From the NCBI GenBank assembly GCA_031256905.1, contig JAIRPY010000050.1, forward strand, positions 1 to 32,125: a stretch of 32,125 nucleotides of DNA. Reading direction: 5' to 3'. Within the stretch, counting starts at the first letter, position 1, and each line of letters opens with the position of its first letter. The notes beneath the pieces were generated by a model. That model made no database searches. It saw only the letters and a program-made list of their open reading frames with translations, and had not been told where the DNA came from. This DNA is from Spirochaetaceae bacterium. GTDB lineage: Bacteria; Spirochaetota; Spirochaetia; Treponematales; Breznakiellaceae. Shown in pieces: positions 11,515 to 15,612 of the stretch. The position numbers and the translations under genes are program-made.

Positions 11515-12873
11515 CTACTGCGGATTTCCCATTAACCTTCTGACAGCTTCATTGCTTTGTTTGAGCTGTTCGACTTGTTGCTGAAGGCTTGCATTTTGGC
11601 TACGCAGAGTAGCAAGTTCGCTGTCATTTGGCGGAATCTGCGTTTGTTGGTTCCGCAAGTCGGTAAGGGTTTTTTGGATGTTCGCATTTTGGTTTCGCAG
11701 TTCGGTGACAGCCTGCTGAAGATTCGCGTTTTGGCTACGCAGATCGCTGATTACGCTGTCCCGGGTGCCGATGTTCTGTTGAACCGTAGAGCTTTGGTTT
11801 CGCAGTTCAACGGCCGTCTGCTGAAGATTAGCGTTCTGGCTACGCAGATCCGCATTCTGAGTGCGTAAATCTGCAAGCGTCATGTCCCGAGCTGTGATAG
11901 ATTGTCTGAACGTTTCATTTTGATTTCTCAACTCTTTGATTGTGTTTTCATGGGCGATTATCGTTTGTTGGAGATTCGTGTTTTGGGATCGCAAAGCCGT
12001 AACGCTTTGCTGATTATTCGCGCTTTGGGATCGCAGAGTCCCAATCTGCTGTTGCAAAGATGAATTTTGGGATCGCAAAGTTGTAACCGACTGCTGTAAA
12101 TTAGTGTTCTGATTTCTCAACGCGGTAAGGCGTTCTTCATAATCTGGAGGCGTTGATTCCGGATTCCCGGAACGCCCCGAAAGATCAAAAATAGTCCGAT
12201 CCCGATTCGCAAGGGTCTGTTCCAGCAGAGTATTTTGTTCCCGAAGGTCTGCGATAATATCCGAATACTCCTGCTGTATAGCCTCAATTCGGGATGGATC
12301 TAGGGAATCAGCCGGCGACGCAGTAATACTGTCAGTTCCCCATAAACCGCTCCCAATCACTTCTGCAAGTATATCGACAGAGGCGAGATAAACTTCTTTC
12401 TGAGACCCCAGTTCTGAAGCTTTGAGTAATTCCCGCATCGCCAGCACCGTATCAACGGCCTCGCTGAACCGGCCTTCCTTGATTTGCCGGCCGGCGGCGG
12501 TATAAAAACCGATCAACTCGCTTTCGATTAAGGCAGATCGCTCCCATTCTCCGGGGGAAATGTAGGAGGATCCCCAGTACTGCGAAACAGTTTCACCTTC
12601 GGATTCCGCCGGGGAATCAAAGAAAAAAAACAGAAACGCTCCGCTCCCCAAAAGCAAAAGCGCGGAAACTGCCGCGAGAATCGGAAACAGGACGCCTCGT
12701 TTTTTAGCGTACCCTTTTAAATCAGTCTGATCGGGCCTACACCGGTACTGTCCGGCTAGGTCCTCGATTTCCGTGAGGATGTCTTTCTGTTCAGTTTCAG
12801 GAATACCGCAGGATGTATCCAGCGCAATGCTTGAAACTATATCGTCTTCGTCATACAGTTTTCGTACCGCCAT
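11515..12873 (-). CDS. Membrane-anchored protein with a long repeat coiled-coil domain
   Basis: One TM (about residues 61-85), then a degenerate 14-aa repeat LRSQNANLQQxVTxLRNQN. Confidence 0.8.
   Translation of the reverse strand: MAVRKLYDEDDIVSSIALDTSCGIPETEQKDILTEIEDLAGQYRCRPDQTDLKGYAKKRGVLFPILAAVSALLLLGSGAFLFFFFDSPAESEGETVSQYWGSSYISPGEWERSALIESELIGFYTAAGRQIKEGRFSEAVDTVLAMRELLKASELGSQKEVYLASVDILAEVIGSGLWGTDSITASPADSLDPSRIEAIQQEYSDIIADLREQNTLLEQTLANRDRTIFDLSGRSGNPESTPPDYEERLTALRNQNTNLQQSVTTLRSQNSSLQQQIGTLRSQSANNQQSVTALRSQNTNLQQTIIAHENTIKELRNQNETFRQSITARDMTLADLRTQNADLRSQNANLQQTAVELRNQSSTVQQNIGTRDSVISDLRSQNANLQQAVTELRNQNANIQKTLTDLRNQQTQIPPNDSELATLRSQNASLQQQVEQLKQSNEAVRRLMGNPQ
11530..12123 (-). 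repeat. Intragenic degenerate ~42-bp (14-aa) tandem repeat region
   Basis: Recurrent TTGGCTACGCAGA / TTGGTTTCGCAGTTC / TTGGGATCGCAAAG segments on the + strand. Confidence 0.8.
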
Positions 12874-14954: not shown

Positions 14955-14983
14955 TTTACAAAAAAAGTGTAGTATAGTATTAT
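14955..14983 (+). promoter_or_regulatory. Predicted sigma70-type promoter TTTACA-N17-TATTAT
   Basis: TTTACA 14955-14960, TATTAT 14978-14983. Confidence 0.6.
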
Positions 14984-15107
14984 ACAAAGAAGATAGTGTT
15001 CTAACAAAGCAGATGCCGCTCTAAAAACAAACAGGTATACTGCGCCAAAGAGACATCATCGAAAAACAGAGCGAATACGCGCTCTAAACACAGAAAAGAG
15101 GTTCATA

Positions 15108-15566
15108 ATGGCAAAGAAAACACTGGTATTACCGGGAGACGCGCTAAAAGAAAAAATTAAGGAATATAATATTCCCATAAGCGCGCTTTCCAGCGACATC
15201 AGAATCAGCGTGTCTGCGGTACGGCAGATAACCACTAACCGTGGACGAATCAGTCTGCACATCGCCCGGCGGCTGGCAAAGTATTTTTCCGACACTACCG
15301 TAGAGTATTGGATGAACATCCAAACCGCTTACGATATCGCGGAACTAGATCATGACCCGGAATTCACGGAAGCTTTCAAGAAAATCCCTAAAGCGAAAAA
15401 AATACCCGCCGCCCCAGCCAAAAAAGCCCCGGAAAAACCGCCAAAAAAAGACGCCAAAAAAAGGACGCCGAAAACCGTCACTCCCCCGGACGACGCCCCA
15501 GCTAAACCCGCCCGGAAACCCAGAACGAAAAAACAGCCGGAAAAACAGGAACAAACCGAAGCCTAA
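15108..15566 (+). CDS. HigA-like XRE/HTH DNA-binding protein with Lys/Pro/Ala-rich histone-H1-like C-terminal tail
   Basis: N-terminal ~90 aa matches the HigA antitoxin pattern (LPGDALKEKIKEYNIPISALSSDIRISVSAVRQITTNRGRISLHIARRLAKYFSDTTVEYWMNIQTAYDIAEL); tail KKIPAAPAKKAPEKPPKKDAKKRTPK... Confidence 0.8.
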   Translation: MAKKTLVLPGDALKEKIKEYNIPISALSSDIRISVSAVRQITTNRGRISLHIARRLAKYFSDTTVEYWMNIQTAYDIAELDHDPEFTEAFKKIPKAKKIPAAPAKKAPEKPPKKDAKKRTPKTVTPPDDAPAKPARKPRTKKQPEKQEQTEA

Positions 15567-15582
15567 ACCCAATATAGGCTCA

Positions 15583-15612
15583 AACGAAAGCCCGGAAACC
15601 CCGGCTTTCGTT
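15583..15612. terminator. Bidirectional terminator-like hairpin between convergent HTH and MerR genes
   Basis: AACGAAAGCC / GGCTTTCGTT, 10-bp stem with 10-nt loop; abuts the MerR stop codon. Confidence 0.6.

Follow-up and report, generated by a model that had tools for sequence, protein, structure and literature searches.

A HigA-type protein with a histone H1-like basic tail, encoded without HigB in a family of spirochaetes

We analysed a window of 32,125 nucleotides from a Spirochaetaceae bacterium (contig JAIRPY010000050.1, positions 1 to 32,125). At positions 15108-15566 (+ strand) it encodes a 152-aa protein that belongs, by profile and by fold, to the HigA protein family. It is not a HigBA toxin-antitoxin system, since we searched for the partner gene that defines one and it is absent. 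The architecture, a HigA core followed by a basic tail, is conserved family-wide, lacks HigB and has a distinct, conserved recognition helix. Judging from these sequence features, the protein is probably a solitary regulator, derived from HigA, that binds DNA as a dimer and carries a disordered DNA-binding arm resembling histone H1 and AT-hooks.

The core and the tail

Residues 1-97 (15108..15398, + strand) comprise a HigA-type HTH core and a linker helix. The NCBIfam model TIGR02607 matched residues 7-82 with 52.3 bits (cut-off 47.7) and was also matched by all 26 members of alignment A1 (E <= 0.01); the Pfam HTH_3 match was barely above threshold. An alignment-based AF2 model was confident over the core (pLDDT block means 85 or more, residues 11-80) and contained six helices there (9-20, 24-31, 35-42, 50-59, 65-81 and 84-91). 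The best PDB matches by sequence were GraA, YbaQ and Pseudomonas aeruginosa HigA, and the same three proteins topped a Foldseek search of the PDB with the model (TMt 0.70-0.87). These matches bear out the initial annotation, which had read the first ~90 aa as a HigA antitoxin-type HTH.

The third of these helices, residues 35-42 (VSAVRQIT; 15210..15233, + strand), is the recognition helix, with the signature S34-x-S36-A37-x-R39-Q40. In a column comparison of 88 tailed homologues with 31 tail-less HigAs, SxSAxRQI was conserved in the tailed proteins versus TRISEI in the HigB-linked ones, and the arginine of the G-K-R turn, found in 94% of tail-less HigAs, was lost from the tailed group. Conservation of the recognition helix among the tailed HigAs argues for a specific DNA site.

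Beyond residue 97 the protein continues as a K/P/A-rich, basic tail of 55 aa (residues 98-152; 15399..15563, + strand), which holds 17 K/R, 7 D/E, 12 P and 9 A and includes a block, RKPRTKK, that the alignment of the genus shows to be conserved. It was modelled with low confidence as unstructured and is probably disordered. A tail of K/P/A repeats had been proposed at ~60 aa, close to the length found. Core and tail meet at a junction motif, I-P-K-A-K-K (residues 93-98; 15384..15401, + strand), seen in alignments A1 and A3, with I93, A96, K97 and K98 invariant in A3. Tail conservation resides in composition and in short blocks (the IPKAKK junction, RKPRxKK and KRGRKP) rather than in exact sequence.

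AT-hook-like motifs are enriched in the tails: 29 of the 88 contain RKPR and 29 contain GR(K)P, where shuffled tails gave about 2.5-2.8, although kinship inflates such counts. Within genera, the core had pN/pS values of 0.16-0.28 and the tail values of 0.29-0.66; the closer genera weigh most, since the window's genus is close to saturation at synonymous sites. Selection on the tail is purifying, relaxed but real. An artefact or a frameshift was ruled out as the source of the tail by its pN/pS below 1 and its recurrence in 88 homologues, and that recurrence likewise means that the tailed architecture is not due to chance. In composition and motifs, the protein combines a DNA-binding domain with a basic H1-like tail, as nucleoid-associated proteins do, and we infer that the tail itself binds DNA. 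Some tailed homologues (L038, L050, L146 and L150) have tails of 125-160 aa with a long acidic end, a basic-then-acidic arrangement reminiscent of HMG proteins.

Homologues and the missing HigB

We searched relatives, the family and the phylum for homologues with protein and profile queries. Within the same family, 92 of the 150 genomes and 42 of the 57 genera sampled gave matches, of which a minority were tail-less; the fetched loci comprised the 88 tailed and 31 tail-less homologues. Tails measured 26-160 aa (median 54), with a net charge of -1 to +28 (median +13). All tailed homologues fell in one spirochaete family, while loci retrieved outside it in a 393-genome survey of the phylum were tail-less (95-106 aa). 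A scan with closer rows returned 15 named loci from Treponema or Spirochaetaceae MAGs. The family is most likely Breznakiellaceae, to which most termite-gut spirochaetes belong (PMC13067680). Tailed cores grouped together in a core tree, where the tailed and tail-less labels required 2 changes versus 27 in shuffles; this tree is based on 97 columns and its fine branching is unsure. Some family genomes lack the gene, several of them incomplete and some near-complete. A phage or plasmid origin was rejected, with matches restricted to the HigA core, at ~31-34% identity and at most 57% query coverage.

In a HigBA system the toxin gene adjoins that of HigA, normally on its upstream side. HigB was found within 600 bp of 0 of 88 tailed homologues versus 25 of 31 tail-less HigAs collected in the same way. 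The HigB model behind these counts started from three HigB genes of tail-less loci before it was widened, and is therefore partly trained on the positive class. An independent Pfam HigB survey agreed: HigBs lay beside tail-less HigAs, where the neighbour was retrieved, or on other contigs, and none was present on any covered contig of the tailed genes. In the window's own genome (73% complete), PF05015 detected no HigB near the gene or elsewhere. This extends to distant loci the earlier observation that no HigB-like ORF flanks the gene, which holds, the flanks being parC, a MerR-type regulator and folC. There is good support for the proposal behind that observation, that an antitoxin fold was recruited to make a DNA-binding protein that lacks a toxin and has a conserved basic tail: we looked for higB beside the gene in relatives and for an absent or frameshifted tail in close homologues, and neither search told against it. 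The roles suggested along with it, nucleoid-associated protein or global regulator, are plausible.

Genomic setting and transcription signals

On re-reading the sequence, the ORF, its coordinates and the residues originally quoted matched exactly. The gene is divergent from parC (topoisomerase IV subunit A) and convergent with the gene for the MerR-type regulator, beyond which lies folC. Two congeneric genomes (G003 and G001) retain both the parC and the MerR neighbour, and another, G004, retains the parC side, so that across four species of this genus the gene holds a fixed position next to parC. Among shared neighbours outside this genus, no consistent operon was found. Also adjoining parC in the window, positions 11515-12873 encode a 452-aa protein that contains a transmembrane-like stretch as well as coiled-coil repeats of a degenerate 'LRSQNANLQQ' pattern. 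The length of this protein ranges from 452 to 727 aa among congeners.

The gene had been credited with its own promoter and a hairpin terminator. A promoter match, TTTACA-17 nt-TATTAT (14955..14983, + strand), is indeed present in a region conserved in the genus alignment. It is followed by a ribosome-binding site, AAAAGAGG (15094..15101, + strand), 6 nt before the ATG; AAGGAG-type sites are enriched upstream of the homologues. The 5' leader between them (14986-15093) has ~65 extra bases compared with three congeneric genomes. The terminator stands only in part: a strong hairpin (15583..15612, strand unassigned; -17.8 kcal/mol, z = -4.75) lies between the convergent genes and has no T run. A ~60 bp block (GGACTAGTAATAT...AAGATAGTATTATATA...TTCTATGATC) is strongly conserved 5' of the gene at loci L115-L119, L121 and L034, from seven species of one genus.

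A de novo search for operators yielded one candidate for autoregulation, GTATAGTATTATAC (14972..14985, strand unassigned), which overlaps the -10 box. Tailed genes of three genera carry its shared core, TAGTATTA, upstream and near the -10 box (10 forward matches versus 0.2 expected). We consider TAGTATTA a candidate operator of the tailed genes, which could be merely a conserved -10 box.

Function and comparison with known systems

We favour a solitary regulator over a nucleoid-associated protein, another role for the tail or an orphan antitoxin, on the strength of the conserved recognition helix, the tail and the precedents of the HigA2 arm and the HupB tail. Such a regulator of transcription would have descended from a HigA antitoxin. 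Its core would form a HigA-type HTH dimer, as expected from its HigA homologues, and would recognise a specific palindromic site. Its own promoter is probably among the targets, so that the gene may be autoregulated. The lysine/proline/alanine tail would remain disordered and add largely non-specific DNA contact, through charge and AT-hook-like RKPR/GRKP contacts, increasing affinity and residence time and possibly bending or bridging DNA. Counted against the solitary regulator are the variability of the tails, which span 26-160 aa and net charges of -1 to +28 and in a few cases end in acidic stretches, and the absence of the gene from some genomes of the family, several of them incomplete.

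An abundant nucleoid-associated protein, binding mostly without sequence specificity, with the HTH as a dimeric anchor and a tail that compacts or bridges DNA like HupB or histone H1, is a less likely explanation. The tail does resemble H1 and the PAKK/KAAK repeats of HupB in composition, the transcription unit stands alone and several homologues can occur at unrelated loci of one genome, with four in G024 and three each in G432 and G440 (L038, L040, L041, L050, L120, L132, L158, L133 and L151). Such multiplicity is more in keeping with a regulator or a role in chromatin than with an addiction module. However, the recognition helix is conserved, as sequence-specific binding predicts, some near-complete family genomes do without the gene, and HU-family proteins are already encoded in the window's own genome, which also rules out replacement of a missing HU. 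Somewhat speculatively, the antitoxin of an addiction module may have become a family-specific, sometimes multi-copy chromatin protein of termite-gut spirochaetes, in which a HigA dimer carrying an H1/HMGA-like tail would combine site recognition with organisation of the nucleoid.

Basic low-complexity tails can bind RNA as well, and the tail might act in binding RNA or ribosomes, in contacts with protein partners or in turnover, with the core an ordinary local repressor. The faster evolution of the tail would agree with this, as would the lysine-rich C-terminus of Porphyromonas gingivalis Fur, which was important in vivo although promoter binding in vitro did not depend on it (PMC6613475). 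We regard such a role as improbable given the enrichment of AT-hook-like motifs and the fusion of the tail to a DNA-binding core in every homologue. Least probable is an orphan antitoxin or toxin-antitoxin remnant that counteracts a HigB encoded elsewhere or some other toxin: HigA ancestry is clear, HigBs occur in some relatives and the window's own genome is incomplete, but HigB is absent near all 88 tailed genes and from that genome, wherever the survey retrieved a HigA next to a HigB it was tail-less, and purifying selection across many genera, together with the absence of HigB, rules out a remnant or decaying gene.

The tailed HigA offers a broadly sampled, clean example of how an antitoxin parted from its toxin, acquired a chromatin-type tail and persisted for long enough to spread across a bacterial family. 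That new global regulators or nucleoid proteins arise from the antitoxins of toxin-antitoxin systems thereby becomes a directly testable idea, with the tail-less, HigB-linked HigAs of the same family as natural controls. In the literature searched, which covered few subscription journals and is weak evidence in this respect, we found no description of the tailed HigA, its restriction to one family or its consistent separation from HigB.

HigA antitoxins (TIGR02607), such as P. aeruginosa HigA, Pseudomonas putida GraA and Coxiella burnetii HigA, share the fold and are ~30% identical in the HTH core, whereas the tailed protein has no HigB, its own promoter, a C-terminal basic tail and another recognition-helix signature. 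Escherichia coli YbaQ is a stand-alone protein. This HigA/VapI-type protein (PDB 2eby), among the best PDB matches, has the HigA-fold HTH in common but, unlike the tailed protein, no long basic tail. Vibrio cholerae HigA2 is likewise a HigA with a disordered arm that strengthens DNA binding, raising operator affinity about 16-fold and being required for repression (PMC11006873); that arm, however, is N-terminal, toxin-binding and sequence-sensitive, whereas the arm described here is toxin-free, resembles H1 and lies at the C-terminus. Mycobacterial HupB and Streptomyces HupS also consist of a DNA-binding domain and a long K/A/P-type H1-like tail (PMC5676037, PMC11229371), which HupB requires for nucleoid association (PMC5676037), but their core is an HU fold without sequence specificity rather than a HigA HTH. 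Lysine-rich C-termini have similarly been added to the DNA-binding proteins Streptomyces topoisomerase I (lysine repeats; PMC7398561) and P. gingivalis Fur (PMC6613475), whose cores are unrelated. Each half of the protein is known, from the tails of HupB and HupS and from the disordered arm of HigA2.
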